A DNA stretch of 64,000 nt from Rathayibacter sp. VKM Ac-2804 (GTDB taxonomy: Bacteria > Actinomycetota > Actinomycetes > Actinomycetales > Microbacteriaceae): NCBI RefSeq assembly GCF_009866655.1, contig NZ_CP047420.1, positions 930,001 to 994,000 on the forward strand, given 5' to 3'. Shown here piece after piece: positions 2,173 through 50,597 of this stretch (its first letter is position 1; every line of letters begins with the position of its first letter). The notes under the pieces are model-generated. The model made no database searches. It saw only the letters and a program-made list of their open reading frames with translations, and was not told the origin of the DNA. A program made the translations under genes and the position numbers.

Positions 2173-2268
2173 CAGGGCAGTCTACCCGCGGAGTCCGGGG
2201 GTCGGCCGCGGTCCTGGGGAAGACTGCACGGATGCGCTCGGATCAGCGGGGCCTGGAATAATGCCGCG
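2173..2268. promoter_or_regulatory. Divergent leaderless promoters for hemA and hemE
   Basis: On the minus strand TAGACT (2184-2179) ends six bases before the hemA GTG. On the plus strand AATAAT (2257-2262) ends six bases before the hemE GTG at 2269. Both are -10 elements placed so that the first transcribed base is the start codon. Shine-Dalgarno sequences are absent before both starts. No heme- or iron-responsive operator is evident by eye in the 96 bases. Confidence 0.65.
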
Positions 2269-3402
2269 GTGACCTCCCCCGACACCGGCCTGCTCGATCC
2301 GCTGCACCCGCTCGCCTCCGGGCGCACGGCCGACTCCTCTCTTCTGCGGGCGTACCGCTCCGACCGGCCGGAGTCGACGCCCGTCTGGTTCATGCGCCAG
2401 GCCGGCCGCAGCCTCCCCGAGTACCGGGCGCTGCGCACCGACACCCAGATGCTCGACGCGTGCCTCGACCCGGCCCTCGCGAGCGAGATCACCCTGCAGC
2501 CGATCCGCCGCCACGGCGTGGACGCGGCGATCTTCTTCAGCGACATCGTCATCCCCCTGCGCCTCGCGGGCGTCGCCGTCGACATCGTCCCCGGACGCGG
2601 ACCGGTGCTGGAGAAGGCGGTGCGGACCGCCGCCGACGTCGACGAGCTCGTGGCGCTGGACCCGGCCCTGCTCGACGAGACGCTCGAGCCGATCCGCGAG
2701 GGCGTGCGCCGCACGGTCGAGGGCCTGCAGGGGATCGGCGCGGGCGACACCCCGCTGATCGGCTTCGCGGGCGCCCCCTTCACCCTCGCGGCCTACCTCG
2801 TCGAGGGCGGGCCGTCCAAGGACCACATCCGCGCCCGCACCCTGATGCACGCCGATCCCGAGGCCTGGGCCCGGCTGATGGAGTGGACCGCCGAGGTCAC
2901 CGGCCGCTTCCTCCGCGCGCAGGTGCAGGCCGGCGCGAGCGCCGCGCAGCTCTTCGACTCCTGGGCCGGCGCGCTCTCGCTGGCCGACTACAGCGCGCAC
3001 GTGGCTCCCGCCTCCTCCCGCGCGCTCACCCACGTGCGCGACCTCGCCTACGACCACGGCGAGACCCGGCGGAACGTGCCGATCGTGCACTTCGGCGTCG
3101 GCACCGGCGAGCTGCTCGGCGCGATGCACGGGATCGGCGCGGACGTCGTCGGCGTCGACTACCGCATCCCGCTCGACGAGGCGAACCACCGGCTCGGCGG
3201 CTTCGTGCCGGTGCAGGGCAACGTCGACCCGGCTCTGCTCTCCGCGCCGTGGGAGGTGCTGGCCGCGCACGTCGAGGACGTCCTCCGCCGCGGCACCAGC
3301 GCGCCGGCGCACGTGCTGAACCTCGGCCACGGTGTGCCGCCCGAGACCGACCCCGACGTGCTGACGCGCTTGGTCGCGCACGTGCACGCCTGGCGGCCAT
3401 GA
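2269..3402 (+). CDS. hemE: Uroporphyrinogen III decarboxylase
   Basis: This 377-residue enzyme removes the four acetate carboxyls of uroporphyrinogen III to give coproporphyrinogen III. The N-terminal signature VWFMRQAGRSLPEYR, the GFAGAPFTLAAYLVEGG signature and the C-terminal NLGHGVPPETDPD are all present, and the length is normal. GTG at 2269 was chosen because the reading frame extends far upstream without homology and an AATAAT hexamer ends exactly six bases before it. The last bases overlap the cgoX ATG (ATGA at 3399), so the two are translationally coupled. It opens the rightward heme operon. Confidence 0.95.
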   Translation: MTSPDTGLLDPLHPLASGRTADSSLLRAYRSDRPESTPVWFMRQAGRSLPEYRALRTDTQMLDACLDPALASEITLQPIRRHGVDAAIFFSDIVIPLRLAGVAVDIVPGRGPVLEKAVRTAADVDELVALDPALLDETLEPIREGVRRTVEGLQGIGAGDTPLIGFAGAPFTLAAYLVEGGPSKDHIRARTLMHADPEAWARLMEWTAEVTGRFLRAQVQAGASAAQLFDSWAGALSLADYSAHVAPASSRALTHVRDLAYDHGETRRNVPIVHFGVGTGELLGAMHGIGADVVGVDYRIPLDEANHRLGGFVPVQGNVDPALLSAPWEVLAAHVEDVLRRGTSAPAHVLNLGHGVPPETDPDVLTRLVAHVHAWRP

Positions 3403-4940
3403 CCGAGGAGCGCGGCACCGAGGGGCGCGGCGGCGAGGGGCGCGGCAGCGAGGCCGGCACCGATTACGACGTCGCGGTCGTCGGCGGGGGAGTGGCGGGA
3501 CTCGCCGCCGCCGCCGAGTGCCTCCGGATCGGACTGCGGGTGGTCGTCCTCGAGGCGGGCGACGCGGTCGGCGGCTCGGTCGCTCCGCTCGGGATCGCCG
3601 GGGTCGTCCTCGACGCGGGCGCCGAGAGCTTCGCCACCCGCGGCGGGCACGTCGAGAAGGCGCTCGCCGCGCTCACCCTCGACGGCCGGCCGCTCGCCGA
3701 GTCGATCGTCGAGCCGCGCACCGGCGGCTCCTGGCTGCACCTCGCGGGCGGCCGCTCGGTCCCCTCGCCGCGGGCCGGCGTCCTCGGCATCCCCGGCACC
3801 CCGCTCGCGCCCGACGTCGTCCGCGCGATCGGCCGCCGCGGTGCCGCGCGCGCCTGGCTCGACGCCGTGATGCCGGTGCTGCGGATCGGCCGCGCCCACT
3901 CCCTCGCCGAGCTCGTGCGCACCCGGATGGGGCAGCGGGTCCTCGACGACCTCGTCGCGCCCGTCGTCTCCGGCGTCTACTCCAGCCGCCCCGAGGACAT
4001 CGACGTCGATGCAGCGGCGCCCGGGCTGAACGGGGCGATCACCCGGTCGGGCTCACTGGCCGGCGCGGTCGCCGCCCTGCGCGCGAACCTCCCGGCCGGC
4101 GTGGCCGTCCGCGGGATCGACGGCGGGATGCACCGCCTGGTCGCCGCGCTCGTCGAGCGGATCGACTACCTCTCGGGGGAGATCCGGGTGCGGACCGCCG
4201 TGACCCGGCTCGAGGGCGACGGCGAGCCGTTCCTGCTCACCCTCGGCGACGGTGCCGCGCTGAGCGCCCGAGCCGTCATCGTCTCGACCCCGGAGCGCGA
4301 CGCGCGCGAGCTGCTCGCCGGGATCGTGCCCGCGGTGCGCGAGGAGGCGGCCGAGGTGCTGCACGACTCCGTCGAGCTGGTCACCCTCGTCGTCGACGAC
4401 GCCCGCCTCGACGCGGCGCCCCGCGGCTCCGGCGTGCTCGTCGCCCCGACCGCCCGCGACGTCACGGCGAAGGCGCTCACCCATGCGACCGCGAAGTGGG
4501 CGTGGCTCGCCGCCGGTCTGCCCGCGGGCCGGCACGTCCTCCGCCTCTCCTACGGGCGCCCGGGCGAGCACCCGCCGCTCGAGGGCGCGACCGACGCCGA
4601 GGCGGCCGCGACCGCGCTGCGCGACGCGTCGATCCTGCTGGGGATCGAGCTCGACCCCGCCACCCTCGTCGACTCCGCGCGGGTGCGCTGGGCGAACGTC
4701 CGGCCCGCCGCGGCACTGGGCCGCCGGGCGCACCTGGAGGCGTTCCGCGAGGCGCTCGCCCCGGTCGCGGGCATCGCCGTGACCGGCACCTGGCTCGCGG
4801 GGACGGGTCTGGCCTCTGTGCTCCCGCACGCCGCCGGGACCGCCGCTCTTATCCGGCGCCGACTGGTGCGTCAAGGCGTCGGCATTCCGCGCGAAGAATA
4901 TGACGGCGACGGCTACTCTGGGAGCCAGGCATCCGCGTGA
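3399..4940 (+). CDS. cgoX: Coproporphyrinogen III oxidase (HemY/CgoX-type flavoprotein)
   Basis: This 513-residue FAD protein has the N-terminal dinucleotide-binding motif VAVVGGGVAGLAAAAECLR followed by VLEAGDAVGG. Near the C-terminus is the second FAD contact GIAVTGTWLAGTGLASVLPHA. This is the HemG/HemY family. In actinobacteria these enzymes oxidise coproporphyrinogen III to coproporphyrin III, feeding the coproporphyrin-dependent route; chdC and cpfC nearby support this assignment over protoporphyrinogen oxidase. The first 20 residues are a Gly/Glu/Arg-rich extension ahead of the FAD fold. ATG overlaps the hemE stop by four bases. A non-conserved tail (EEYDGDGYSGSQASA) ends the protein. 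Confidence 0.92.
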   Translation: MTEERGTEGRGGEGRGSEAGTDYDVAVVGGGVAGLAAAAECLRIGLRVVVLEAGDAVGGSVAPLGIAGVVLDAGAESFATRGGHVEKALAALTLDGRPLAESIVEPRTGGSWLHLAGGRSVPSPRAGVLGIPGTPLAPDVVRAIGRRGAARAWLDAVMPVLRIGRAHSLAELVRTRMGQRVLDDLVAPVVSGVYSSRPEDIDVDAAAPGLNGAITRSGSLAGAVAALRANLPAGVAVRGIDGGMHRLVAALVERIDYLSGEIRVRTAVTRLEGDGEPFLLTLGDGAALSARAVIVSTPERDARELLAGIVPAVREEAAEVLHDSVELVTLVVDDARLDAAPRGSGVLVAPTARDVTAKALTHATAKWAWLAAGLPAGRHVLRLSYGRPGEHPPLEGATDAEAAATALRDASILLGIELDPATLVDSARVRWANVRPAAALGRRAHLEAFREALAPVAGIAVTGTWLAGTGLASVLPHAAGTAALIRRRLVRQGVGIPREEYDGDGYSGSQASA

Positions 4941-5016
4941 GTGCGGCGTGCCCCGACACGAGTGGTCATCGACCGCGTGAACGAGCCGCGAGAGCGGCCC
5001 AGGACGAGGAGTAGGC

Positions 5017-5385
5017 GTGAAGGGCAAGATTCTTTTCGTGGCAGGAGCCGCAGCGGGCTACGTGCTGGGAGCGCGTGCAGGCCGCAAGCGGTACGAGCAG
5101 ATCGCCTCGGCGGCGAACAGGTTCTGGCAGACGCAGCCCGTGCAGGACGTCGCGGGTGCCGTGGGCGGAGCGGCGAAGACGCAGCTCAGCACGGTCTCCG
5201 ACAAGGCCTACGAGCTCGTCCGCACCGTCGTGGTGAAGGCCGTCTCCGGCGGCAAGAAGGCGCAGGGCGCCTCGCCCGCCGAGGCGACCGCCGCGGCCCG
5301 CTCGGCCGCGTCGAAGGTCGACGAGGCCGCCGCCGCGGCCGGCTCCGGAGGATCGACCTCGTCGTCCTCCACCAGCAAGGCGTAG
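5017..5385 (+). CDS. YtxH-like membrane-anchored protein
   Basis: This is a 122-residue protein. Residues 3-18 form one hydrophobic, Gly/Ala-rich segment, followed by GARAGRKRYEQI, as in YtxH/DUF-type stress proteins. A short helix-prone region and a Ser/Ala-rich disordered tail complete it. The GTG start at 5017 has an upstream AGGACGAGGAG ribosome site. It is the first of three small genes (with the holin-like and DUF3618 genes) inside the heme operon. Members of this trio are usually membrane-surface proteins of unknown job; a link to envelope stress is known only by family association. No catalytic residues are seen. Confidence 0.65.
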   Translation: MKGKILFVAGAAAGYVLGARAGRKRYEQIASAANRFWQTQPVQDVAGAVGGAAKTQLSTVSDKAYELVRTVVVKAVSGGKKAQGASPAEATAAARSAASKVDEAAAAAGSGGSTSSSSTSKA

Positions 5386-5449
5386 TCCTCATCCCCCCGG
5401 GCCGTCCGTTCGGCCGAGGCCCGGCACGTCCCCCCTGCGAGGAGCCCCC

Positions 5450-5863
5450 GTGGTGAACGAACGCAATCCGAAGAACGCCCGATCGCTGGGCGAGCTGGTC
5501 AGCGACCTCCCCGGTCTCGTGATCGAGCTCGTGAAGGCCGAGATCGCCTCCCTCAAGAACGAGCTGTCCGGCAAGGCGAAGAGCGCCGGCCTGGCGGTCG
5601 CGCTGTTCGCGGTCGCGGCCTTCTTCCTCCTCACCGCGTGGGCGACCCTCGTCACCTTCGCGATCATCGGCATCGCCTCCTGGCTCCCCGCCTGGCTGTC
5701 GGCGCTGATCGTGACCGTGTTCTTCCTGCTGGTGGCGGTCGTGCTGATCCTGGTCGGCGTCAAGTCGATCAAGAAGGCCGTCCCGCCCGTTCCGCAGGAC
5801 TCGATCGAGAGCATCAAGAAGGACGTCCAGGCGTTCAAGGGAGTCGGCAGCTATGACCACTGA
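5450..5863 (+). CDS. Holin-X-like (phage_holin_3_6 / DUF1469) membrane protein
   Basis: This 137-residue protein has an amphipathic N-terminal helix (SLGELVSDLPGLVIELVKAE), then two adjacent long transmembrane helices at about residues 42-72 and 77-101, and a short charged tail. This is the layout of the actinobacterial putative holin-X / DUF1469 family. Despite the name, members are chromosomal housekeeping membrane proteins, not lysis proteins, and there are no phage genes around it. GTG start at 5450 follows GAGGAGCCCC. Its 3' end overlaps the next ATG by 11 bases, so the pair is coupled. Confidence 0.75.
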   Translation: MVNERNPKNARSLGELVSDLPGLVIELVKAEIASLKNELSGKAKSAGLAVALFAVAAFFLLTAWATLVTFAIIGIASWLPAWLSALIVTVFFLLVAVVLILVGVKSIKKAVPPVPQDSIESIKKDVQAFKGVGSYDH

Positions 5864-6155
5864 TCGCGCTGTGTCCAGCACCACGCCCCGCTTCGTCGAC
5901 CCGGCGGAGCTCGAGCCGAGTCAGCTGAAGGCCGACATCGAGCGCGCCCGCACCGAGCTCGCGGCCACGCTCGACGCCATCGAGTACAAGGTGAACGTCC
6001 CGCGCAAGGTGCGGAACGTCCAGCGCACCCTCGAGCGCAAGGTCGCCGTCGTGCGCAAGCACCACCCCGAGGCGCTGATCGCGGGCGCCGCGGGTGCGGC
6101 CGCCGCGGTCGGCCTCGTCGTCTGGGGCATCGTCCGCGCGGTCGTCGAGGACTGA
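5853..6155 (+). CDS. DUF3618 membrane protein
   Basis: This 100-residue protein has the DUF3618 core: LKADIERARTELAATLDAIE, then a basic helix (VPRKVRNVQRTLERKV), then a single C-terminal transmembrane helix of about residues 75-95 rich in Ala/Gly/Val. It starts inside the end of the holin-like gene (ATG at 5853) and ends just before a strong hairpin. The family is found beside YtxH-like and holin-X-like genes in many actinobacteria, and its function is unknown. The heme-operon setting here could mean a membrane scaffold role, but that is inference. Confidence 0.75.
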   Translation: MTTDRAVSSTTPRFVDPAELEPSQLKADIERARTELAATLDAIEYKVNVPRKVRNVQRTLERKVAVVRKHHPEALIAGAAGAAAAVGLVVWGIVRAVVED

Positions 6156-6166
6156 CACTCGGCCGC

Positions 6167-6198
6167 GGGGGCCCGGGTCGCTAGCGCCCCGGGCCCCC
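6167..6198 (+). terminator. GC-rich hairpin after the three membrane genes
   Basis: GGGGGCCCGGG (6167-6177) pairs with CCCGGGCCCCC (6188-6198) around a 10-base loop that itself contains CGCTAGCG. A TTTT run appears 18 bases later (6219-6222). It separates the ytxH-like/holin/DUF3618 genes from chdC, which has its own leaderless promoter just downstream. Confidence 0.65.
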
Positions 6199-6256
6199 GG
6201 GCGCCAGAGTCCCTGCCGCTTTTGTGCATCGGCACGAGCGGAGGGATGATGGATCA

Positions 6257-7033
6257 ATGACCGATCAGACCGCCGAGACGGCGGGTCCCGTTCAGTCCGC
6301 CCCCGACACGAGCGCCGCTCCGGCGCCGCAGCCCCCCGCCGATCAGGATCACTCCGATCAGGCCCTGGGATACACGCTCTGGGCGGTTCTCCGCAGGGAT
6401 CCCTCACGCCCGTTCACCCTCTCCGCCGACGAGGCCGCCCAGGCGGCCGCCGGCTACGAGGACACCGTCGCGCGGCTCGCGGGCGAGGGCGTCACGGTGC
6501 GCGGCACCTACGACGTCTCGGCCCTCCGTGCCGACGCCGACATCATGCTCTGGCTCACCGGAGCCGCGCCCGAGGAGTTGCAGCGCGCCTACCGCGAGCT
6601 GCGCCGCACCGAGCTGCTCTGCGCGCTGCTGCCCACCTGGAACGCGATGGGCGTGCACCGCGACGCCGAGTTCAGCTCGAACCACCTCCCCGCCTACATG
6701 CGGGGCAAGGCGCCGGCCCGCTGGCTGACGGTCTATCCGTTCGTCCGCTCCTACGAGTGGTACATCCTCCCCGAGGAGGAGCGCCGCACCATGCTCGCCC
6801 AGCACGGCCGTCAGGGCTCGCGCTTCCGCTCCGTGCTGACCAACACGGTGGCCTCGTTCTCGCTCGGCGACTACGAGTGGATCCTCGCGCTCGAGGACGA
6901 GGAACTGGTCAACCTGGTCGACCTCATGCGCGACCTGCGAGCCACCGAGGCCCGTCGGCACGTGCGCGAGGAAGTCCCCTTCTACACCGGTCGGCGCATC
7001 GAGGCCGACCAGATCGCCGAGGTCCTCCGATGA
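6257..7033 (+). CDS. chdC: Coproheme decarboxylase
   Basis: This 258-residue chlorite-dismutase-fold enzyme (HemQ/ChdC) converts iron coproporphyrin III to heme b by two oxidative decarboxylations. It contains WLTVYPFVRSYEWYILPEEE, with the tyrosines that take part in decarboxylation, and MLAQHGRQG, in which His183 is the expected proximal heme ligand. A 35-residue Ala/Pro-rich N-terminal tail precedes the fold. ATG at 6257 was chosen over GTG at 6224 because a GATGAT hexamer ends six bases before it. The ATGA overlap with cpfC couples the two terminal enzymes of the pathway. Confidence 0.93.
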   Translation: MTDQTAETAGPVQSAPDTSAAPAPQPPADQDHSDQALGYTLWAVLRRDPSRPFTLSADEAAQAAAGYEDTVARLAGEGVTVRGTYDVSALRADADIMLWLTGAAPEELQRAYRELRRTELLCALLPTWNAMGVHRDAEFSSNHLPAYMRGKAPARWLTVYPFVRSYEWYILPEEERRTMLAQHGRQGSRFRSVLTNTVASFSLGDYEWILALEDEELVNLVDLMRDLRATEARRHVREEVPFYTGRRIEADQIAEVLR

Positions 7034-8289: not shown

Positions 8290-8305
8290 CGGGAAGCACT
8301 CAGTC

Positions 8306-10101: not shown

Positions 10102-10128
10102 CCCGCGCCTGCCGCGCACGACATCAGC

Positions 10129-10173
10129 TGAGACGGGTGGGGCTCCGCTGTCAGGGGAGGGACCCCCGTCTCA
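10129..10173 (+). terminator. Possible terminator after hemD
   Basis: TGAGACGGG (10129-10137) is the exact reverse complement of CCCGTCTCA (10165-10173), with a 27-base GC-rich loop. There is no T tract. It lies in the 189-base gap between hemD and hemB; the rest of that gap shows nothing except the hemB promoter. Confidence 0.35.
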
Positions 10174-10278
10174 ACCCCGAGCGCAGCGCTCCTCGGGGAT
10201 CTGTGGAGAGAAGATCACGAGGCGGTCCTGGGGAGGAGCTGATGTTCCGCGGTCAGGGGGCACTCCGCGAGCCCGGCT

Positions 10279-10290
10279 TAGGCTGGAGGC
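10279..10290 (+). promoter_or_regulatory. Leaderless -10 element of hemB
   Basis: TAGGCT at 10279-10284 ends exactly six bases before the hemB ATG at 10291. The spacer GGAGGC also resembles a Shine-Dalgarno site, but it would hardly be transcribed if initiation is at the A of ATG. The same TAGGCT with the same spacing precedes the MarR gene (29242) and the Lrp gene (37195, minus strand). Confidence 0.65.
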
Positions 10291-11262: not shown

Positions 11263-11302
11263 GCACATCCTCCGTGAAGGGTCCGCGCCGTATCGTGGTC
11301 GG

Positions 11303-12643: not shown

Positions 12644-12659
12644 GCGGTGGCGCCGGGGG

Positions 12660-14670: not shown

Positions 14671-14732
14671 CCCTCCATGCTGCCACCGCGACCGCCGGGC
14701 GCCGGGTGCGATGGTCGGGGCAGACTAGGGGC
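14671..14732. promoter_or_regulatory. Back-to-back leaderless promoters (DksA-like gene / 14733 gene)
   Basis: Minus strand CAGCAT (14682-14677) and plus strand CAGACT (14721-14726) each end six bases before a start codon (14670 and 14733). The 38 bases between the two -10 elements must hold both -35 regions, so the promoters overlap and initiation may be mutually exclusive. Confidence 0.5.
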
Positions 14733-16513: not shown

Positions 16514-16560
16514 GAGCCCACGCTACGCCCGAGCGCGCGGAACGCGCCCGGGCGGCGGCG

Positions 16561-17334: not shown

Positions 17335-18245
17335 CCGAGCACCGTAGCCCGCTCCGCGACGTCCCCGCCGTGCGCCGCGCAGGACGCGGTGCCGCAGGCG
17401 TCGCAGACCACGAGCTGCTCCCGGCAGCCGGGATCGGTGCAGTTGCGCATCCGGCTCGTCGGCTCGGCGCAGACGCTGCAGCGGCCGAGCACCTCGGCGT
17501 CGGGGGAGAAGGTCAGCGAGCCGCGCCCGTCGAAGACGTAGAGCGCGCCGCGCCAGAGCCCCGTGTCGCGGCGGGCCTCCTGGTAGCGGACGACACCGCC
17601 GTCGAGCTGGTACACCTCGCCGAAGCCGCGCGCGAGCATCAGGCTCGAGAGCACCTCGCAGCGGATGCCGCCGGTGCAGTAGGTGACGACCGGCCGGCCC
17701 TTGAGGTGGTCGTAGGCGCCGGAGTCGAGCTGCTCGACGAACTCGCGGGTGCTGGCGACCCCGGGCACGATCGCGCCGTCGAAGCGGCCGATCTCGGCCT
17801 CGAAGGCGTTGCGGCCGTCGAAGAAGACCACGTCCTCCCGCTCGGCGACCAGGGCGTCGAGCTCGTCGGGGGCGAGCCGGGTGCCGGTGCCGACGACGCC
17901 CGTCGCGTCCACGCGCAGCTCCTCGGGCGCCCCGAACGACACGATCTCCTCACGCACCTTCACCGACAGCCCGGGGAAGTCGACGCTGCGGCCCTCGTCG
18001 TCGAGGCCCGTGCCGTCGCTCCACTTCACCTCGAGGCCGCGGAAGGCGGAGTGCTCGCGGGTGCGGCGGACCCAGCGCTTGAGCGCGCCCATCTCGCCGC
18101 CGAGGGTGCCGTTGACGCCGTCCTTCGAGAGCAGGACCCGGCCGCGCAGGCCGAGGTGCTCGGCGAGCTCGCGCTGCCAGAGCCGGACGGACTCGGGGTC
18201 GGCGAGCGGCACGAAGCGGTAGAACAGCAGGATCTTCGGCAGCAC
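17331..18245 (-). CDS. trhO: tRNA uridine(34) hydroxylase, rhodanese-domain protein
   Basis: This 304-residue protein has an N-terminal acylphosphatase-like domain ([30 protein letters not shown]) and a rhodanese domain with the active loop CTGGIRCE, catalytic Cys190. A C-terminal Cys-rich region ([25 protein letters not shown]) is typical of this family. It matches the YceA/TrhO enzymes that hydroxylate U34 of tRNA toward 5-hydroxyuridine modifications. The GTG start at 18245 is preceded by TAGGAT ending six bases upstream. The next gene overlaps by four bases. Confidence 0.88.
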
Positions 18246-18317
18246 CGGGTCATCCTACGAGGGCCGGGCCGGGTCGGCCGAAACGCTCCGGCAACGCGGG
18301 TGTGACAGCATCTCCCG

Positions 18318-20666: not shown

Positions 20667-20725
20667 CCGCTCAGAGTAGAGGACGCGGGGGCGGGGTCGG
20701 GTCGCCCGCCCCGGGTGGGAACGAC

Positions 20726-21711: not shown

Positions 21712-21967
21712 GTGCGCATCTCCAGTGATAGGCGGTTGGCCGGGCGGTCGGAACTGTGCCGCGACAGCGCGAAACTACGCCCGGAATCGGGGCACTGCCT
21801 AGCGGAATCGGGCGATCCAGATTGCGCATGTGTTCTTCCGGGTTGAACCAATCCAGGCGGGGCGCCGCTCCGAACACGTCGTGAATGGCGGTTCTGCGGG
21901 ACACCTGATCAGGGCGTCGTTCCGGGGTGCTTCGGCGAGTGTCGGCACCCGCGATTACCATCGCAGC
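21712..21967. promoter_or_regulatory. 256-base divergent region with a 21-bp-spaced direct repeat
   Basis: CGGAATCGGG occurs at 21782-21791 and again at 21803-21812, 21 bases apart, which is two helical turns on the same face. The right end holds the leaderless alkA -10 element TACCAT (21956-21961). No other repeat or small ORF with convincing codon use is seen. The direct repeats may be a regulator site for the ferritin-like gene. Confidence 0.45.
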
Positions 21968-24921: not shown

Positions 24922-25093
24922 CGGGTCTCCGATCGGGAGCGGGACTGTCGGGTGCGCCCCATGGTGCTCCTCCGCCGGGCCCGCGTCCATCGCCCCTTCG
25001 CGGGCGTCGTCCACAGCCGCAGTTCCCTGTCGAGTGTCCACAGACGGGGCGACACGACCCGCCGCCGCGCCGCCTCGGGCATAGCCTCGGGGG
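24922..25093. promoter_or_regulatory. putA upstream region with two DnaA-box-like sites
   Basis: TCGTCCACA (25007-25015) and GTGTCCACA (25034-25042) each match the DnaA box TTGTCCACA at eight of nine positions, same strand, 27 bases apart. A TAGCCT -10 element (25082-25087) ends six bases before the putA ATG. The 172 bases separate putA from the divergent small gene. DnaA binding is only suggested. Confidence 0.35.
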
Positions 25094-29209: not shown

Positions 29210-29235
29210 TTGTCGCGGCAACAAAGGGCTAGGCT
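29210..29235 (+). promoter_or_regulatory. Pseudo-palindrome and -10 element before the MarR gene
   Basis: TTGTCGCGGCAACAA (29210-29224) matches its own reverse complement at 12 of 15 positions. It lies just upstream of TAGGCT (29230-29235), which ends six bases before the MarR-gene ATG. A regulator bound there would block RNA polymerase, so autoregulation is likely. The rest of the gap after putA (29033-29209) shows nothing clear. Confidence 0.45.
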
Positions 29236-29814: not shown

Positions 29815-29854
29815 GCCTCTGGTGGGCGGAACCGCCGCGTGCCATCCTCGACCC

Positions 29855-33508: not shown

Positions 33509-34156
33509 TCAGGGCAGAGTCAGCACGAGCTCGTCGCCGTCGACGTCGACGCTCGCGTCGGAGTAGTGCGGGATGCGCGGCAGCCCGCGGGTGGTCTCGG
33601 ACTCGTGCGCTCCGACGACGACGACGCGCATGCCGGCGGCGAGGCCCGCGAGGATCCCGGCCTCCGCGTCCTCGAAGACGACCGCGTCGGCCGGGTCGAC
33701 GCCGAGGAGCCCGGCGGCCGCGAGATAGCCGTCGGGCGCGGGCTTGCCGTGCACGACGTCGTCGGCGGTGACGACGGCAGCGGGGGAGGGGACGCCCGCG
33801 GCGGCGAGGCGACCGGCGGCCAGCGCCGGACTCGCGGAGGTGACCAGCGCCACGCGGTCGCGGGGGATCGCCGCCAGGAAGTCGACGGCGCCCGGGATCT
33901 CGACGGTGCCCTCCGTGTGCTCGAGCTCGTAGGCGTTCAGCTCGCCGACGATCCCCGCCACGTCGCTGCCCGCGGGGGCGAAGCGGCGCACGCTGTCCTC
34001 CGCGCGGACCCCGTGCACGGCGCCGAGGACCAGGCTCGCGTCGAGTCCGAAGCGCTCGGCGAAGGAGCGCCAGATCGTCTCCACCACCGCGGTCGAGTCG
34101 ACGAGGGTGCCGTCCATGTCGAAGAGCAGGGCGCGGGCGCGGAGGGTGTGCGGCAT
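33509..34156 (-). CDS. HAD-family sugar phosphatase
   Basis: This 215-residue protein has motif I LLFDMDGTLVDST (nucleophile Asp13, acid Asp15), motif II LVTSASPALA, motif III VVHGKPAPDGYLAAA and motif IV VVFEDAEAGILAG, a complete subfamily IA HAD phosphatase with a helical cap. It resembles sugar-phosphate phosphatases of the YfbT/YniC group. CAGGAT ends six bases before the ATG at 34156. The longer upstream frame is Ser/Pro-rich and not part of the family. Confidence 0.85.
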   Translation of the reverse strand: MPHTLRARALLFDMDGTLVDSTAVVETIWRSFAERFGLDASLVLGAVHGVRAEDSVRRFAPAGSDVAGIVGELNAYELEHTEGTVEIPGAVDFLAAIPRDRVALVTSASPALAAGRLAAAGVPSPAAVVTADDVVHGKPAPDGYLAAAGLLGVDPADAVVFEDAEAGILAGLAAGMRVVVVGAHESETTRGLPRIPHYSDASVDVDGDELVLTLP

Positions 34157-34304
34157 GCGTCCATCCTGGCGGAGGCCCGTGCACGGCGTCCGCTCAGGCG
34201 GAGGAGAGGTCGCGGCAAGGCCGCGCCCAGGTGCGACCGGGGATCGCGGCGATACGCTCGACTCCGATGGCGGGCAGAGCGCCCGAAGGGGAGCGGAGGA
34301 CGCG

Positions 34305-37195: not shown

Positions 37196-37269
37196 GCGTC
37201 GAGCCTAGGGGCGGGGTCGGAGCCGGTCGGGCACCCGCGCGATCACGGCGGGTCCGCGCCTGAGGGCGG

Positions 37270-37838: not shown

Positions 37839-37889
37839 CCGCCCCGCGGAGGGATGCGGATCACCACTGGCGGAAACACCTCGCTCGGC

Positions 37890-40838: not shown

Positions 40839-40859
40839 GCTTACCTCCTCGGCGCTCGA

Positions 40860-40907: not shown

Positions 40908-40969
40908 CACTGCCGCGGCTCGGATCCGGACCCGCCGGTCCCGCTCCCTCCGCTTCGAAAGGCTCAGCA

Positions 40970-42397: not shown

Positions 42398-42441
42398 CCC
42401 CCCCCCGGCCGGCCCGCTCGGCTGATTAGGCTGGAGAGGAC

Positions 42442-42933: not shown

Positions 42934-42961
42934 GCCGCCCCGCCCTCTCAGTGCCGCCGTC

Positions 42962-43561: not shown

Positions 43562-43648
43562 GCCCCGATCCTGGCACCCGGGCCGCGCGGTCGTGCCGGA
43601 ACGGCACGGATCCTCGACGGACCGCGGCCGCCATCGGATGCTCGGGAC
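43562..43648. promoter_or_regulatory. XRE operator between two leaderless promoters
   Basis: CGTGCCG (43592-43598), GAA, CGGCACG (43602-43608) is a perfect palindrome. Leftward -10 CAGGAT (43573-43568) and rightward -10 GATGCT (43637-43642) each end six bases before their start codon. The palindrome is likely bound by the XRE-cupin protein. Confidence 0.6.
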
Positions 43649-44584: not shown

Positions 44585-44622
44585 CCGGCTCTGGGGGTCG
44601 TCGGCCGGTGAATACTGGACCG

Positions 44623-45849
44623 ATGACCCCGCCGCGCCCCCTCGAGCAGTCCTCCAAGCTCCGCAACGTCCTCTACGAGATCCGCGGCAAGGCGCTCGTG
44701 GAGGCGTCGCGGCTGGAGAGCGAGGGTCACCGCATCCTCAAGCTGAACACCGGCAACCCGGCCGGCTTCGACTTCGAGGCGCCGCACCAGATCGTCCGCG
44801 ACATGATCGCCGCGATGCCCAGCGCGCACGGCTACAGCGACAGCCGGGGCATCCTCTCGGCCCGCCTCGCGGTGACCTACCGCTACGAGGAGGTCCCCGG
44901 CTTCCCACCGGTGGACCCCGAGTGGGTGTTCCTCGGCAACGGGGTGTCCGAGCTGATCACGATGACGCTCCAGGCGCTGCTCGACGACGGCGACGAGGTG
45001 CTGATCCCGGCGCCCGACTACCCGCTCTGGACGGCGATGACGAGTCTCGCCGGCGGCACCGCGGTGCACTACCGCTGCGCGGAGGACGACGGCTGGCAGC
45101 CCGACCTCGAGGACATCCGCTCGAAGGTCACGACGCGCACCAAGGCCATCGTCGTCATCAACCCGAACAACCCCACCGGCGCCGTCTACACCCGCGAGGT
45201 GCTCGAGGGGATCGTGGCGCTCGCCGAGGAGCACTCGCTGCTGCTGCTCGCCGACGAGATCTACGACCGGATCCTCTACGACGACGCCCAGCACATCCCG
45301 CTGGCGTCGCTCGCGCCGGACCAGCTCTGCCTCACCTTCAACGGGCTGTCCAAGACCTACCGCGTCGCCGGCTACCGCTCCGGCTGGCTCGCGATCACCG
45401 GGCCGCGCGAGCACGCGGCGGGGTTCCTCGAGGGGATCACCCTGCTCGCGTCGACCCGGCTCTGCCCGAACGTGCCGGGGCAGTACGCGGTGCAGGCGGC
45501 GCTCTCGGGCGTGCAGTCGATCGAGGCGCTGATCGCGCCGGGCGGGCGGCTGCGGCGCCAGCGCGACGCCGCGTGGAGCGGGCTGCAGGCGATCCCCGGC
45601 GTCTCCTGCGAGCTGCCGAGGGGCGCGCTCTACGCGTTCCCGCGGCTCGACCCCGAGGTGCACGAGATCCGCGACGACGGTCGGCTCGTCTACGACCTGC
45701 TGCTCGCGGAGCACATCCTGCTGGTGCCCGGCACCGGCTTCAACTGGCCGACGCCCGACCATCTGCGGATCGTGACGCTGCCGGAGGAGCGGGTCATCGC
45801 GGAGGCGATCGAGCGGCTGGGGAACTTCCTCTCGTCGTACACGCAGTAG
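44623..45849 (+). CDS. AlaA/AlaT-type pyridoxal-phosphate aminotransferase
   Basis: This 408-residue class I/II aminotransferase has LKLNTGNPAGFDFEAP, GYSDSRGILSAR, VFLGNGVSELI, VINPNNPTGAVY, the DEIYDRILYDD segment and the PLP lysine Lys244 (NGLSKTYRVAGYRSGW). These match alanine-synthesising transaminases, which make alanine from pyruvate and glutamate. AATACT ends six bases before the ATG at 44623. Converges with the response regulator with four bases between. Confidence 0.88.
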   Translation: MTPPRPLEQSSKLRNVLYEIRGKALVEASRLESEGHRILKLNTGNPAGFDFEAPHQIVRDMIAAMPSAHGYSDSRGILSARLAVTYRYEEVPGFPPVDPEWVFLGNGVSELITMTLQALLDDGDEVLIPAPDYPLWTAMTSLAGGTAVHYRCAEDDGWQPDLEDIRSKVTTRTKAIVVINPNNPTGAVYTREVLEGIVALAEEHSLLLLADEIYDRILYDDAQHIPLASLAPDQLCLTFNGLSKTYRVAGYRSGWLAITGPREHAAGFLEGITLLASTRLCPNVPGQYAVQAALSGVQSIEALIAPGGRLRRQRDAAWSGLQAIPGVSCELPRGALYAFPRLDPEVHEIRDDGRLVYDLLLAEHILLVPGTGFNWPTPDHLRIVTLPEERVIAEAIERLGNFLSSYTQ

Positions 45850-45853
45850 CCGC

Positions 45854-46528
45854 TCAGACCCGGCGGTACTCCAGCTCCGGCCGTCCCGGCGAGCCGTAGC
45901 GCGGGGCGCGCTCGGCGACTCCCGAGTCGGCGAGGTGCTCGAGGTAGCGCCGCGCGGTGACCCGCGAGACGTCGAGCCGGGCGGCGAGCTCGCCCGCGGA
46001 GAGGCCGACCGGGCCCAGCAGCGCGGTCACCGCGTCGAGCGTCTCGGCGGAGAGTCCCTTCGCCAGTCCCGGAGCGTTGGAGGTCCGCAGCGCGGCGAAG
46101 GCGCCGTCCACCTCGTGCTGGCTGGCGACGTCGGCCCCGTGCATCCGCTCGCGGTAGGAGCGGTAGCTGGCGAGCTTCGCCGCGAAGACGCTGAAGACGA
46201 ACGGCTTGATCAGGTACTGCACGATCCCGGCGGCGACGCTGGCGCGGACCACGGCCGCGTCGCGCACCGCGGTGATCGCGATCACGTCGACGTCCAGGCC
46301 CGCCGCGCGGACGGCCCGGCAGAGATCGAGCCCGCCCATGTCGGGCAGGTTCATGTCGAGGAGGATCAGCGCGATCGCGGGGTCGGCGCGCAGGGCGCGG
46401 ATCGCCTCCGCTCCGCTGCCGGCCACGGCCGCGACCTCGAAGCCGGCGACGCGCCGCACGTAGTCGGCGTGGGCGCTCGCGGTGAGCGGCTCGTCCTCGA
46501 CGACGAGGACGCGGATCAGCGCGGTCAC
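45854..46528 (-). CDS. CitB/DcuR-type response regulator
   Basis: This 224-residue protein has a receiver domain (VLVVEDEPLTASAHADYV, phosphoacceptor Asp58 in LILLDMNLPDMGG, Lys108 in IKPF) and a C-terminal winged-helix-like DNA-binding region (GLSAGELAARLDVSRVTARR). The order and DNA-binding part match the CitB/DcuR/DpiA family, which respond to C4/C6-carboxylates. GTG start overlaps the kinase stop by four bases. Partner of the kinase at 46525 and probably the regulator of the divergent carrier. Confidence 0.9.
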   Translation of the reverse strand: MTALIRVLVVEDEPLTASAHADYVRRVAGFEVAAVAGSGAEAIRALRADPAIALILLDMNLPDMGGLDLCRAVRAAGLDVDVIAITAVRDAAVVRASVAAGIVQYLIKPFVFSVFAAKLASYRSYRERMHGADVASQHEVDGAFAALRTSNAPGLAKGLSAETLDAVTALLGPVGLSAGELAARLDVSRVTARRYLEHLADSGVAERAPRYGSPGRPELEYRRV

Positions 46529-48144
46529 GACTGCGCCCTCGACGGCGTCCGCAGCGGCAGCTGCACTGTGAACACCGCGCCGACGTGCCGCGACACCTCG
46601 ATGCTCCCGCCGAGCCGCTGCACCACCTGCTGCACCAGCGCGAGGCCGATGCCGCGGCCGAACGCGTCCGACTCCTTCGTCGAGTAGCCGCGGGCGAAGA
46701 CGTCGGCCGCCTCGGCGACGCCGGGTCCGCTGTCGGAGACCTGCAGCACCAGCTCGGCGCCCTCGGCACCGGCGTCCTCGGCGAGGCCGAGGTAGACCTC
46801 GACCCACGGCTCGCGGTCGGCGGTGGAGGAGGCGGCGGCGTCGAGCGCGTTGTCGATCAGGTTGCCGAGCACGGTCACCAGGTCGCCCGGTTCGAAGCCC
46901 TGGGCGCCCGGCTCGAGGTGCGTCTCGAGGTGCAGCTCGACCCCGCGCTCGCGGGCCTGCGCGGCCTTGCCGAGCAGCAGCGCGGCGATCACCGGCTCCT
47001 GCACCGAGCCGAGCACCCGGTCGGCGAGCCGCTGGCTGAGGTTCAGCTCGCCGGCCGCGAAGGCGAGCGCCTCCTCCGCCCGGCCGAGCTCGATCAGCGA
47101 GGCGATGGTGTGCAGCCGGTTGGAGAACTCGTGGGTCTGCGAGCGCAGAGCGTCCGAGAGGGTGCGCATCGACTCCAGCTCGCCCGACACCCGCTGCAGC
47201 TCGGTGCGGTCGCGGAGCGTCGTCACCGTGCCGAGCGGGTGCGCGCCGGGGGAGGCGGCCGGCCGCTCGTTGACCACGAGGATCCGCTCGTGCGCCACGA
47301 CCAGGCGGTCGGCGACCGGCTCGTCGGCCAGCAGCACCGTGCGCAGGGCGTCGGGGAGGTCGAGCTCGTCGACGGGCACCGGGATCGACACGCCCTCGAG
47401 CCCGAGCAGCTGGAGCGCGTGGTCGTTGGCGAGCACCAGCCGCCCGCGGTCGTCGACGAGGAGCAGCCCCTCGCGCACCGAGTGCAGCACCGACTCGTAG
47501 TACGCGAAGACCTGGCTCATCTGCTCCGGACCGCGGCCGCCCGTGACCCGGCGGAGGTAGCGGGCGAGCAGCCAGGAGCCGACGCCGCCGAGCGCCACCG
47601 CGCCGAGCACGCCGCCGGCCACGACCTGCAGGCGGGGGAGGAAGGAGGCGTCCACCCGGCTCACGGTCACGCCGGCCGAGACCAGCGCGACGACGGTGCC
47701 GTCGGCGCTCTCGATCGGCGCGACGGCGCGCACGGAGGGCCCGAGCGTGCCGGTGTAGGTCTCGGTGAAGGTGCGGCCCTCGAGTGCCGGAGCGATGGTG
47801 CCGATGAACGGCAGGCCGATCTGGGCGCGGTCGCGATGGGTGTAGCGGGTGCGGTCGGGGTTCATGATCGTGAGGAAGTCGACGCCGGTGTCGGCCATGA
47901 TCTCCTCCGCGTAGGGCTGGAGCGAGGCCGACGGGTCCGCGCCCTCCGCCGCGTCGAGGACGAACGGGTTGTCGGCGACGGTGCGCGCGACCACCAGGCT
48001 CCGCGCGGCCGCGTCGTCGCCGGCGCGCCCGCGGGCGTCGAAGGCGAGGACCAGCACCGCGATCGCGCCGATCACGAGGATGCAGATCAGCTGGGCGGCG
48101 AACAGCCGGGCGGCGATGCTGCCGCGGGGGCTCGTTCCGGGCAT
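46525..48144 (-). CDS. CitA/DcuS-type sensor histidine kinase
   Basis: 539 residues: a transmembrane helix (16-34), an extracytoplasmic PDC/CACHE sensor with MADTGVDFLTIMNPDRTRYTH (DTGVDFLTIMN), a second helix (about 172-192), a PAS domain (VREGLLLVDDRGRLVLAND), a SpoB-like DHp with phosphoacceptor His338 (QTHEFSNRLHTIASLIELG) and a HATPase domain (VLGNLIDNALDAAA, GRGIGLALVQQVV). The sensor sequence matches citrate/C4-dicarboxylate kinases. ATG at 48144 was chosen for GAGGAGG five bases upstream. Confidence 0.9.
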   Translation of the reverse strand: MPGTSPRGSIAARLFAAQLICILVIGAIAVLVLAFDARGRAGDDAAARSLVVARTVADNPFVLDAAEGADPSASLQPYAEEIMADTGVDFLTIMNPDRTRYTHRDRAQIGLPFIGTIAPALEGRTFTETYTGTLGPSVRAVAPIESADGTVVALVSAGVTVSRVDASFLPRLQVVAGGVLGAVALGGVGSWLLARYLRRVTGGRGPEQMSQVFAYYESVLHSVREGLLLVDDRGRLVLANDHALQLLGLEGVSIPVPVDELDLPDALRTVLLADEPVADRLVVAHERILVVNERPAASPGAHPLGTVTTLRDRTELQRVSGELESMRTLSDALRSQTHEFSNRLHTIASLIELGRAEEALAFAAGELNLSQRLADRVLGSVQEPVIAALLLGKAAQARERGVELHLETHLEPGAQGFEPGDLVTVLGNLIDNALDAAASSTADREPWVEVYLGLAEDAGAEGAELVLQVSDSGPGVAEAADVFARGYSTKESDAFGRGIGLALVQQVVQRLGGSIEVSRHVGAVFTVQLPLRTPSRAQS

Positions 48145-48262
48145 CCGACCTCCTCGTCCGTGCGCGTTCGTGAACAGTATGAACGCAACCTCCGGCGGGC
48201 GGCCTGCGGGGTCGAGCATCGTCGTACCCCCTCCCAGCTCGATGAAGAGACAGGACACGCTC
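48145..48262. promoter_or_regulatory. Sensor kinase/carrier divergent region with inverted repeat
   Basis: GCGTTC (48164-48169) and GAACGC (48181-48186) form an inverted pair with 11 bases between. It overlaps a possible -10 (CAGTAT, 48175-48180) for the carrier. It is the best candidate site for the response regulator at 45854. Confidence 0.4.
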
Positions 48263-49696
48263 ATGGCGAAGACGCCCGGCACCGATCGGCTCGACCCCCC
48301 GGCCACCCCCGCGAAGACCCGCCGGCGGATCGACCGCAACCACTGGCTCTACATCGCCGTGATCATCGCGGTCGTCGCCGGCGTGATCGTCGGCCTGGTC
48401 GCCCCCGCGTTCGCCGCGACGCTCGAGCCCGTGGGCAAGGCGTTCGTCGGACTGATCAAGATGATGATCGCGCCGATCATCTTCTGCACCATCGTGATCG
48501 GCATCGGCTCGATCGCCAAGGCCGCGACCGTCGGCAAGGTCGGCGGCCTCGCCCTCGGCTACTTCATCGTGATGTCGACCTTCGCGCTGGCCATCGGCCT
48601 GGTCGTCGGCAACATCCTGCACCCGGGCGAGGGCCTCGACATCTCGAGCGCCACCTACGACACCAGCGACCTCAAGGCGGAGTCGACCAGCGACTTCATC
48701 CTCGGCATCATCCCGGTCTCGCTGTTCTCCTCCCTCGTGGACGGCAGCATCCTGCAGACGCTCTTCGTCGCCCTCCTGGTCGGCTTCGCGCTGCAGAAGA
48801 TGGGCGCCAAGGGCCAGCCGATCCTCGGCGCGATCAAGCAGCTGCAGGTCCTCGTCTTCCGCATCCTCTCGATGGTGCTCTGGGTCGCCCCGATCGGCGC
48901 GTTCGGCGCGATCGCCGCGGTCGTCGGCAAGACCGGCTGGGGCGCGGTCGTCGCCCTCGCCACCCTCATGATCGGCTTCTACCTCACCTGCGCGATCTTC
49001 GTGGTCGTCATCCTCGGCCTGCTGCTGCGCCTGGTCACCGGCGTCAACATCTTCTCGCTGATGAAGTACCTGGCCCGCGAGTACCTGCTCATCGTCGGCA
49101 CTTCCTCCTCCGAGGCCGCTCTGCCCCGCCTGATCGCCAAGATGGAGCACCTCGGCGTCTCCAAGCCCGTCGTCGGCATCACCGTCCCGACCGGCTACTC
49201 GTTCAACCTCGACGGCACCGCGATCTACCTCACGATGGCGTCGCTCTTCATCGCCTCGGCGACCGGCGCCCCGATGTCGATCCCGGAGCAGATCGGGCTG
49301 CTGCTCTTCATGATGGTCGCCTCCAAGGGCGCCGCGGGCGTCACCGGCGCCGGCCTCGCCACCCTGGCCGGCGGTCTGCAGTCCTTCCGTCCCGACCTGG
49401 TCAACGGCGTCGGCGTCATCGTCGGCATCGACCGCTTCATGTCGGAGGCCCGCGCGGTCACCAACTTCACCGGCAACGCGGTCGCCACTCTGCTCGTCGG
49501 CACCTGGACCAAGCAGATCGACATGGTCCAGGTCCGCGAGGTGCTCGGCGGCCGCGCCCCCTTCGACGAGGCCACGCTCGGCGCGGACGAGCACGAGGCC
49601 CCGGCCTCCGGCACCTCGATCACCGAGGGCATCGCCTCGATCCAGGACTCGGACGAGGCCGAGCGCACCCGCGCCGAGCTGAGCGCGAAGCGCTAG
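48263..49696 (+). CDS. dctA: DctA-type C4-dicarboxylate:cation symporter (DAACS family)
   Basis: This 477-residue membrane carrier has YIAVIIAVVAGVIVGLVAP, FVGLIKMMIAPIIFCTIV, the Ser-rich re-entrant loop VGTSSSEAALPRLI, the PTGYSFNLDGTAIYLTMA motif and the tail FTGNAVATLLVG. These are all the landmarks of DctA/GltP symporters, which take up succinate, fumarate or malate with Na+ or H+. ATG at 48263 is used; ATG at 48242 is the alternative. The divergent CitAB-like system gives the substrate class. Confidence 0.9.
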   Translation: MAKTPGTDRLDPPATPAKTRRRIDRNHWLYIAVIIAVVAGVIVGLVAPAFAATLEPVGKAFVGLIKMMIAPIIFCTIVIGIGSIAKAATVGKVGGLALGYFIVMSTFALAIGLVVGNILHPGEGLDISSATYDTSDLKAESTSDFILGIIPVSLFSSLVDGSILQTLFVALLVGFALQKMGAKGQPILGAIKQLQVLVFRILSMVLWVAPIGAFGAIAAVVGKTGWGAVVALATLMIGFYLTCAIFVVVILGLLLRLVTGVNIFSLMKYLAREYLLIVGTSSSEAALPRLIAKMEHLGVSKPVVGITVPTGYSFNLDGTAIYLTMASLFIASATGAPMSIPEQIGLLLFMMVASKGAAGVTGAGLATLAGGLQSFRPDLVNGVGVIVGIDRFMSEARAVTNFTGNAVATLLVGTWTKQIDMVQVREVLGGRAPFDEATLGADEHEAPASGTSITEGIASIQDSDEAERTRAELSAKR

Positions 49697-49702
49697 GAAG
49701 CG

Positions 49703-49885
49703 CCGCATTCTGGTCGAGCAGCCGCGGAGCGGCCACCTCATGCTGGTCGAGTAGCCCCGGAGGGGCGTATCGAGACCCACCGTCTGCACCACGGTGGATC
49801 TCGATACGCCCGCTTCGCGGGCTACTCGATCAGCAAGAAGGGGGGCCCGCTGTGCGGGCTACTCGATCAGCATGGAGGCGCAGGC
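49703..49885. repeat. Cluster of palindromic repeats, including a 95-bp cruciform
   Basis: At least four units lie here: TGGTCGAGCAGCC (from 49711), TGCTGGTCGAGTAGCCCC (49741), the GGATCTCGATACGCCCG unit (49796-49835), and CCCGCTGTGCGGGCTACTCG (49847-49873). The second and third are mirrored: 49741-49783 and 49791-49835 are near-perfect reverse complements around a 7-base loop (CTGCACC). Each half has a small inner hairpin (GCCCGC-TTCG-GCGGGC type). It fills the gap between dctA and yczE. Confidence 0.85.
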
Positions 49886-49905
49886 CGCGCGATCAGCACG
49901 TGCCG

Positions 49906-50544
49906 TCAGCTGCGGCGGACGCCCAGCAACGGCAGCGTCACCGCGCAGAGGGGGCCGATCAGCAGGGCGAAGGCGAGCGTGCCGAGGCCGACGTCGCCGC
50001 CGAGGGCCCAGCCGATCAGGAGCACGGTGAGCTCGACGCCGCCGCGGGCCGCCCAGATCGGGAGGCCGAAGCGCGCGTGCAGTCCGGTCATCAGCCCGTC
50101 GCGCGGGCCGGCGCCGAGGCGGGCGCCGATGTAGATCCCGCTCGCGACAGCCAGCAGCACCAGGCCGCCGGCGAACAGCAGCGCCTTCCCCCACCACTCG
50201 GCGGGCACGGCGAGCAGCTCGATCCCGACGCCGATCGTGGTGCCGACGACCAGCACGTTCAGCACGGTGCCGAGGCCGGGCCGCTGCCGCAGCGGGATCC
50301 ACAGCAGCAGGACGAGCAGTCCGATCACGTTGGTGAGCAGTCCGATCCCCAGTCCGGTCTGGCGGGCGACGCCGAGGGCGAAGACGGTCCACGGGTCCAC
50401 TCCGATCGACGCGCGGATCATCATCGCGTCGGCGAAGCCGTAGAGCACGAGCCCGACCAGCAGCCGTGGCACCGGACGGATCCGCCACTGGCTCGCCGGG
50501 GGAGCGGGGACGGCGAGGGGCGCGGTGATCGTCATGCCGAGCAT
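49906..50544 (-). CDS. YczE-family integral membrane protein
   Basis: This 212-residue protein has five or six transmembrane helices and the YczE/YyaS features: FADAMMIRASIGVDPWTVFALGVARQTGLGIGLLTNVIG (short form: ASIGVDPWTVFALGVARQTG), GARLGAGPRDGLMTGLH. Genes of this family are commonly divergent from MocR-like regulators, as here, and may carry a vitamin-B6-related or other small compound; that is known association, not proof. ATG at 50544 is used; ATG at 50535 is possible. Confidence 0.85.
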   Translation of the reverse strand: MLGMTITAPLAVPAPPASQWRIRPVPRLLVGLVLYGFADAMMIRASIGVDPWTVFALGVARQTGLGIGLLTNVIGLLVLLLWIPLRQRPGLGTVLNVLVVGTTIGVGIELLAVPAEWWGKALLFAGGLVLLAVASGIYIGARLGAGPRDGLMTGLHARFGLPIWAARGGVELTVLLIGWALGGDVGLGTLAFALLIGPLCAVTLPLLGVRRS

Positions 50545-50597
50545 CCCATCGCAGGAGTGGCCTTCTCCGCGCGGTCCAATCCGGCTATCTTGGACGC
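50545..50597. promoter_or_regulatory. YczE/MocR intergenic operator
   Basis: GTCCAA (50574-50579) and TTGGAC (50590-50595) are inverted with ten bases between. The right arm overlaps the leaderless mocR -10 TATCTT (50586-50591), which ends six bases before the ATG at 50598. This is a likely autoregulation site for the MocR protein. Confidence 0.5.

Follow-up and report, generated by a model that had tools for sequence, protein, structure and literature searches.

Probable leaderless genes in a window of the Rathayibacter genome

A stretch of 64,000 nucleotides from Rathayibacter sp. VKM Ac-2804 (hereafter the window; C1:930001-994000 of a 4.09 Mb single-contig genome; 73.5% GC) contains a hexamer of the form NANNNT placed exactly six bases before the start codon of 23 of its 61 called genes. 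These are very probably leaderless genes, in which the -10 element of a housekeeping-sigma promoter ends six, or less often seven or eight, bases 5' of the start codon. RNA polymerase would begin transcription on the A or G of the ATG or GTG, and the ribosome would start on the bare 5' end of the message, without a Shine-Dalgarno site. The -10 element would be either TANNNT alone or VANNNT (V, any base other than T), the latter often with a TGN extended -10 and in a few other cases with a -35 TTG, either of which would replace the missing T at position -12. The RNA start point, the identity of the sigma factor and the translation of the leaderless message are what we infer from the sequence.

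Throughout, Nx denotes x bases between the end of the hexamer and the start codon, RTG is ATG or GTG, TGN is the triplet directly 5' of the -10 hexamer (TG at -15/-14), and T(-12), A(-11) and T(-7) are the key bases of the -10. Raw counts of NANNNT are dominated by reading-frame periodicity with a period of 3, so the starts had to be fixed blind to the upstream sequence. They were called by an order-4 phase-specific coding model, which was trained on open reading frames (ORFs) with high third-position GC and did not see the sequence upstream. The genome sample comprised the window and three 400 kb samples (1059 genes), which together hold 1120 genes in 1.26 Mb. The relatives' comparison covered 60 genomes (own and 59 relatives), and the three-genome counts joined the own sample to 800 kb each of G044 (same order, other family) and G018 (same family, other genus), with fresh gene calls.

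Register of the hexamer

At each of the other distances from N0 to N24, NANNNT was present at 0-2 of the called starts of the window, and the excess at N6 has a binomial P of about 2e-25 when the control rate is floored at 1/61. In the genome sample the N6 pattern was found at 176 of 1120 called starts, against a mean of 18.6 at N13-N24. After subtraction of background, NANNNT accounts for about 14% of genes at N6 and for 17% at N6-N8. TANNNT was found at 1, 94, 33, 16 and 6 of the 1120 starts at N5, N6, N7, N8 and N9, respectively, and at 0-4 starts for each distance elsewhere between N0 and N24, so that its profile is one-sided, with almost nothing at N5, a maximum at N6 and a tail through N7-N9. 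TANNNT about 10 bp upstream, which typifies the TA-led genes, thus lies well above chance (94 of 1120 versus a mean of 1.3 at control distances). Comparison of spacings over the whole genome, the check proposed by an earlier sequence-only reading of the window, likewise gave a peak at N6, with 21, 289 and 181 TANNNT-Nx-ATG sites at N5, N6 and N7. Among the 60 genomes, N6 exceeds N5 in 55, exceeds N7 in 52, and is more than three times N5 in 44.

Such a pattern could in principle also come from chance, from the periodicity of reading frames or from a bias in the starts picked by the sequence-only reading, since NANNNT is a loose motif and raw genome counts carry a strong period-3 background; the whole-genome N7 count in particular is inflated by it, as 19 of the 78 N7 sites in 1.26 Mb sit downstream within the same ORF. 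With starts taken from coding statistics, however, the N6 counts of 23/61 and 176/1120 compare with about 0.7 and 18.6 at control distances, and the reversed N6 pattern occurs 63 times in the whole genome versus 289. This explanation is refuted for the set as a whole and retains a practically negligible probability, while single weak hexamers may still be due to it.

Leaderless transcription predicts the edge at N5: a closer -10 would start the RNA inside the start codon, past its first base. So sharp an edge therefore indicates not merely a promoter near a gene, and fits a -10 with +1 on the start codon. A sigma-A promoter lying very near the gene, from which transcription would begin slightly before the start codon and leave a leader of 1-5 bases, is unlikely. 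It would apply above all to the N7/N8 minority, as the positions N7 (33/1120) and N8 (16/1120) could give leaders of 1-2 bases, and an excerpt of the Corynebacterium glutamicum study reports 80 mRNAs with leaders of 1-10 bases (PMC3890552). Against it stand the main peak at N6 with nearly nothing at N5, and the base at -1, which in the three genomes is a pyrimidine at 88 of 111 N7/N8 starts versus 124 of 201 N6 starts (P 0.0015); a preceding pyrimidine would push initiation onto the purine of the start codon. The N7 and N8 registers are real, and the spacing is a preference and no constant.

As a separate observation in the genome sample, the spacers of TANNNT-N6 genes are rich in G, which occupies -5 in 70% and -2 in 71% (28% at -2 in other genes). 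The G at -2 is weaker with TANNNT-N7 (51%) and gone with N8 (12%).

Bases of the hexamer and Shine-Dalgarno content

Hexamers with AA, CA, GA and TA at the first two positions and T at the last were present at N6 of 10, 38, 34 and 94 starts in the genome sample, compared with 2.0, 7.1, 8.2 and 1.3 at control distances. When A(-11) is changed (TC, TG and TT, with final T) the counts are 6, 3 and 6 against 10.8, 4.3 and 1.6 (together 15 vs 16.7), and when T(-7) is changed to A, C or G behind TA they are 1, 4 and 5 against 1.1, 3.0 and 1.8 (together 10 vs 5.9). A(-11) and T(-7) are thus the bases that matter, as in a sigma-A -10 element; they are the ones flipped out by sigma when the -10 melts.

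Shine-Dalgarno 4-mers precede only 5 of the 94 TANNNT-N6 genes, versus 401 of the 889 genes with neither NANNNT-N6 nor TANNNT-N7-N9, while control stretches further upstream contain them in 10% and 15% of these two groups, respectively. The TANNNT-N6 genes therefore share the lack of a Shine-Dalgarno site with the TA-led genes. Of the NANNNT-N6 genes, 51% are divergent (versus 30%) and 88% have an upstream gap of at least 30 bases (versus 68%).

These counts also bear on the proposal that the hexamer binds ribosomes in the manner of a Shine-Dalgarno site, at a preferred distance, and is no promoter. CAGGAT and GAGGAT do include AGGA, plausibly spaced for this, and between -17 and -4 a Shine-Dalgarno-like 4-mer is present in 29 of the 82 VANNNT-N6 genes. 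The most frequent form, TANNNT, shows little complementarity of this kind, and its genes are poor in Shine-Dalgarno sites. Moreover, AGGA beginning at -11 is followed by T in 18 of 50 genes, whereas none of eight other registers (with 8-61 genes apiece) shows this more than 4 times, so T(-7) is position-locked; and VANNNT genes without any Shine-Dalgarno-like 4-mer still peak at N6 (56 versus 8-22 at N13-N24). We consider this proposal highly improbable and reject it for the set as a whole; single genes such as that at 34156 (CAGGAT, no TGN) are ambiguous.

Two classes of the hexamer

The single motif NANNNT of the sequence-only reading holds as regards A(-11) and T(-7), but it covers two classes, TANNNT and VANNNT, the second of which is often preceded by TGN. 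In the own sample, TGN precedes the hexamer at 3 of 94 TANNNT-N6 starts versus 27 of 82 VANNNT-N6 starts. Among the latter, TG is found 2-4 times at each of seven other offsets, and TGN-VANNNT is present at 27 called starts at N6 and at 0-2 for each other distance. The same division appears when N6 and N7 are taken together in G044 (TANNNT 1/69 vs VANNNT 27/72) and in G018 (0/84 vs 23/64). At VANNNT-N6 the triplet is strongest in register in all three genomes (own 27/82, G044 20/56, G018 19/42), although G044 also has a somewhat raised number of TG at offset 3 (8/56). Pooled over the three genomes at N6, TGN accompanies 4 of 201 TANNNT and 66 of 180 VANNNT hexamers, and in the window it accompanies none of 11 called TANNNT-N6 starts and 6 of 12 VANNNT-N6 starts. 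The architecture TGNNANNNT, with TG at -15/-14, A(-11) and T(-7) and a dispensable T(-12), is accordingly found at VANNNT-N6 in the three genomes, while the classical extended -10 TGNTANNNT, which combines TGN with T(-12), is not what TANNNT-N6 starts of these genomes display (4/201). In 48 of the 60 genomes TGNVANNNT-N6-ATG is commoner than its out-of-register counterpart TGNNVANNNT-N6-ATG (71 vs 20 in the own genome); the pooled ratio is just 1.14 in the 22 family members of other genera, because several of these are AT-richer and noisy.

Active avoidance of TGN beside TANNNT was considered and is not claimed. The 60 genomes do have 565 in-register TG versus 1113 one base further; yet in the intergenic sequence of the own genome the neighbouring register is itself high (58, compared with 44 for the in-register position and 34 for each of the two that follow). 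In the gene-based scans TGN near TANNNT equals background, with 4/201 in register and 3-11 for TG at five other offsets, and the claim is therefore one of no enrichment.

A -35 TTG at spacers of 16-19 was found in the three genomes at 14 of 114 VANNNT starts without TGN, with a peak at 17, versus 6 of 267 in the remaining two classes combined (P 1.7e-4). This was first hinted at by the own genome, where the 55 VANNNT starts without TGN include four with TTG at spacer 17 and two at spacer 18; the two added genomes alone give 8/59 vs 3/146. The -35 TTG is likely a third route for VANNNT hexamers that lack TGN, and at most VANNNT-N6 starts without TGN no helper element was identifiable.

These observations fit a threshold model in which a promoter needs A(-11) and T(-7) plus one of T(-12), TGN or a -35. 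It is quite possible, though we advance it tentatively, that the GC-rich actinobacteria of this order use T(-12), TGN or, more rarely, the -35 TTG as either/or codes, each just where the others are missing, and so keep to a minimum of promoter information. How far a gene depends on helper factors, for example RbpA and CarD, may follow from the code it uses. The split between TANNNT and VANNNT with TGN or -35 offers a testable point on how sparing a GC-rich genome is with promoter information.

Conservation at hemE

The hemE gene of the window has its closest named relatives in Rathayibacter sp. Leaf185 (93% identity) and in R. iranicus and R. tanaceti (88%), followed by other Microbacteriaceae. 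In 79 of 80 named hemE loci, an in-frame start at or close to the expected position has NANNNT at N6-N8, compared with 8-27 of 80 for seven control distance triples. Three other Rathayibacter loci share the core TGG-AATAAT-GCCGCG-GTG without change, and differ in the sequence further upstream. Among the matches, TGN occurs with 41 of 69 V-type and none of 10 T-type hexamers. The loci divide about equally between N6 (39) and N7 (42, some loci being counted twice), which again makes the spacing a preference; the description of it as strict or constant in the sequence-only reading was too strong, given this division and the occurrence of N7 and N8.

Weighing of the evidence

Initiation on the start codon is the sole reading tested that fits the N6 peak, the gap at N5, the lack of Shine-Dalgarno sites at TANNNT-N6, the requirement for A(-11) and T(-7), the hemE loci and the pyrimidine at -1. 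This supports the proposal that transcription from these -10 elements begins with the start codon itself, with leaderless transcription as the predicted outcome. Several points weigh against it. A statistic of this kind cannot prove the leaderless status of single genes, and chance would account for about 17 of the 82 VANNNT-N6 cases. Neither the TANNNT class (TTG 4/201) nor the TGN-VANNNT class (2/66) has a -35 above background at spacers 16-19 in the three genomes, so that the identity of these promoters rests on the -10. The six TT...T hexamers at N6, versus 1.6 at control distances, indicate that A(-11) may not be an absolute requirement. The fixed T and A bases contribute to the scarcity of Shine-Dalgarno motifs at TANNNT-N6 genes, which is to be read beside the upstream control of 10% for the same genes. 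The Shine-Dalgarno-like 4-mers of VANNNT-N6 genes arise partly because the hexamer itself can read AGGA, and owing to this overlap some members, for instance 34156, could be led genes. Finally, 5 of the 60 genomes do not have N6 above N5, and 12 do not have the in-register excess of TGN for VANNNT.

Starts in the window

All 22 positions listed by the sequence-only reading do have, on the correct strand, NANNNT ending six bases before ATG or GTG, and its tallies of TAGGCT (3), CAGGAT (2) and CAGCAT (2) were reproduced. The list agrees with independently called starts in 21 of the 22 cases, the exception being putA, and it covers 21 of the 23 called N6 starts, having missed those at 5038 and 52094. 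Its estimate of a third of the genes describes the window (23/61) but not the genome sample (about 14% at N6). The window is unusually dense compared with the 153 of 1059 genes outside it (P 1.4e-5 for a comparison chosen after the fact), and it is the highest of the windows compared, since N6 genes number 1-15 in each of 18 further 64 kb windows from the genome sample. The genes concerned are ordinary ones, including those for heme synthesis (hemA, hemE, hemQ/chdC, hemB and hemL), pfkA, putA, TrhO, regulators of the MarR, Lrp, GntR and HTH-cupin types, and others.

All of the starts that follow are in the N6 register. Those of the TANNNT class on the plus strand are hemB (ATG 10291; putative -10 TAGGCT, 10279..10284), hemL (GTG 11303; TATCGT, 11291..11296), a 312 aa protein without Pfam match (GTG 21968; TACCAT, 21956..21961), putA (ATG 25094; TAGCCT, 25082..25087), a MarR regulator (ATG 29242; TAGGCT, 29230..29235), and a protein with GntR and aminotransferase domains (ATG 50598; TATCTT, 50586..50591). 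On the minus strand the class comprises hemA, encoding glutamyl-tRNA reductase (GTG 2172; TAGACT, 2179..2184), an acrylyl-CoA reductase family protein (ATG 16513; TAGCGT, 16520..16525), a PEP mutase family protein (ATG 17334; TACGGT, 17341..17346, within the 3' end of the upstream ORF), TrhO/rhodanese (GTG 18245; TAGGAT, 18252..18257), pfkA (GTG 20666; TACTCT, 20673..20678), and an Lrp/AsnC regulator (ATG 37195; TAGGCT, 37202..37207).

VANNNT with TGN is found on the plus strand at hemE (GTG 2269; TGG and AATAAT, 2254..2262), a YitT family protein (GTG 18318; TGA and CAGCAT, 18303..18311), a YdeI/OmdA (DUF1905) protein (GTG 29855; TGC and CATCCT, 29840..29848) and an AcrB-type RND transporter (GTG 52094; TGG and AAGACT, 52079..52087), and on the minus strand at a DksA/TraR zinc-finger protein (ATG 14670; TGG and CAGCAT, 14677..14685) and an HTH-cupin regulator (ATG 43561; TGC and CAGGAT, 43568..43576, also Shine-Dalgarno-like). 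VANNNT without TGN precedes, on the plus strand, a 115 aa protein without Pfam match (GTG 5038; AAGATT, 5026..5031, a weak case), chdC/hemQ (ATG 6257; GATGAT, 6245..6250), a 254 aa protein without NCBIfam or Pfam match (ATG 14733; CAGACT, 14721..14726), a pyridine nucleotide-disulphide oxidoreductase (ATG 43649; GATGCT, 43637..43642) and a class I/II aminotransferase (ATG 44623; AATACT, 44611..44616, with TG one base out of register), and on the minus strand a HAD hydrolase (ATG 34156; CAGGAT, 34163..34168, ambiguous with its Shine-Dalgarno-like AGGA). A scan of the window with Rfam returned no family at the gathering threshold.

Four divergent pairs have NANNNT-N6 on both sides (2172/2269, 14670/14733, 18245/18318 and 43561/43649), with 62-96 bases between their starts; the figure is 62 for 14670 and 14733. 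A special spacing of divergent leaderless pairs was considered and dropped, as both genes are leaderless in 22 of 187 pairs versus 17.4 expected, at distances of 19-489.

Use of the signal to fix gene starts

The suggestion that the signal can be used to fix start sites is borne out by the 144 TANNNT-N6-RTG sites in 1.26 Mb. Called starts account for 94 of them, 20 lie in frame 9-396 bases upstream of a called start, and 2 lie downstream of one and share its frame. A further 28 stand at the head of other ORFs, 5-283 codons long, that fall outside called genes; no site is located elsewhere within a called gene. At putA the signal favours ATG 25094 over GTG 25118, located 24 bases downstream, which the coding model alone had chosen. 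No small leaderless TANNNT-N6 ORF is present in the window, where all 12 RTG sites are called starts or putA 25094. TANNNT-N6 thus provides a simple and strong gene-start rule for this genome and many relatives, which could correct start annotation and reveal short leaderless ORFs, e.g., leader peptides.

Some short ORFs were seen on the way. Two with TANNNT-N6-RTG, at C1:1841070 and C1:1766416, encode similar leucine-run peptides, VRIGLLLLSRRDEI and MLFGRLLLLRRDETSI. The former precedes leuA, whose start is 187 bases on, and the latter precedes leuC, with its called start 143 bases on; in both, an internal CGCGACGAG can pair with CTCGTCGCG just 3' of the ORF. A scan with Rfam gave no match at either. 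They resemble the LEU element described upstream of leuA (PMC1262725); the excerpt of that paper makes no mention of a copy before leuC. At C1:1788751, a six-codon leaderless ORF (MSRQQR; TACGGT-N6-ATG) has a stop which overlaps the start (ATGA) of a 462-aa protein, and looks like a translationally coupled upstream ORF.

Comparison with known systems

The published accounts are compared here on the basis of excerpts. According to these, leaderless genes have already been published for actinobacteria, as have the two spacings and the two -10 motifs, which agrees with the statement of the sequence-only reading that leaderless mRNAs are known in this group. Zheng et al. (2011) described TA-led genes, with TAnnnT about 10 bp upstream, at around 20% in 86 of 89 actinobacterial genomes (PMC3160421). 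The motif and position are the same as here, where NANNNT at N6-N8 reaches 17% after background. The present analysis concerns a Rathayibacter genome, resolves the register base by base together with the cliff at N5, and splits off the VANNNT class with TGN. In C. glutamicum 33% of mRNAs are leaderless (PMC3890552), and gene-start tools already take leaderless genes into account (PMC9581028). Among open-licence PMC papers, a restricted set that says little on this point, we found no paper on leaderless genes in Rathayibacter and none by title on gene starts in Microbacteriaceae.

In Mycobacterium tuberculosis, Cortes et al. (2013) mapped leaderless mRNAs, with no conserved -35 and with TGN in 7% of TANNNT promoters (PMC3898074). 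The JAPL re-analysis placed leaderless TANNNT at -12 (B3) and -13 (C1), with +1 on RTG, treated TGNNANNNT as an architecture of its own (E), and noted a -1 pyrimidine at the longer spacing (PMC4227772). Each of these has a counterpart here, namely both registers, the lack of a -35 above background in two of the three classes, TGNNANNNT, and the pyrimidine at the longer spacing. They differ in that the 5' ends were mapped in M. tuberculosis and are predicted here from sequence only. TGN at TANNNT-N6 is found in 3/94 (own), 1/47 (G044) and 0/60 (G018) cases versus the 7% of Cortes et al., and a weak -35, which the JAPL re-analysis assigns to the TANNNT class (B1), was found here in VANNNT without TGN. 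In M. smegmatis T(-12) is present in 63% of ANNNT -10 motifs (PMC6448022), and it is similarly partial here, at 94 of 176 NANNNT-N6 starts and more after background. The excerpt of the M. smegmatis account leaves VANNNT unlinked to an upstream TGN, to which it is linked in the present data.

Complementation between the -15 and -10 elements was reportedly the subject of a study by Djordjevic in 2011. The extended -10 of E. coli, TGNTANNNT, is described as complementary with the -10 (PMC4227772). Both systems have an upstream element (TGN, -35) that compensates a weak -10. That TGN stays at background when T(-12) is present is unstated in the excerpts of the published accounts compared; relative to the extended -10 of E. 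coli, the distinguishing feature here is the restriction of TGN enrichment to hexamers that lack T(-12), those with T(-12) having TGN at background.

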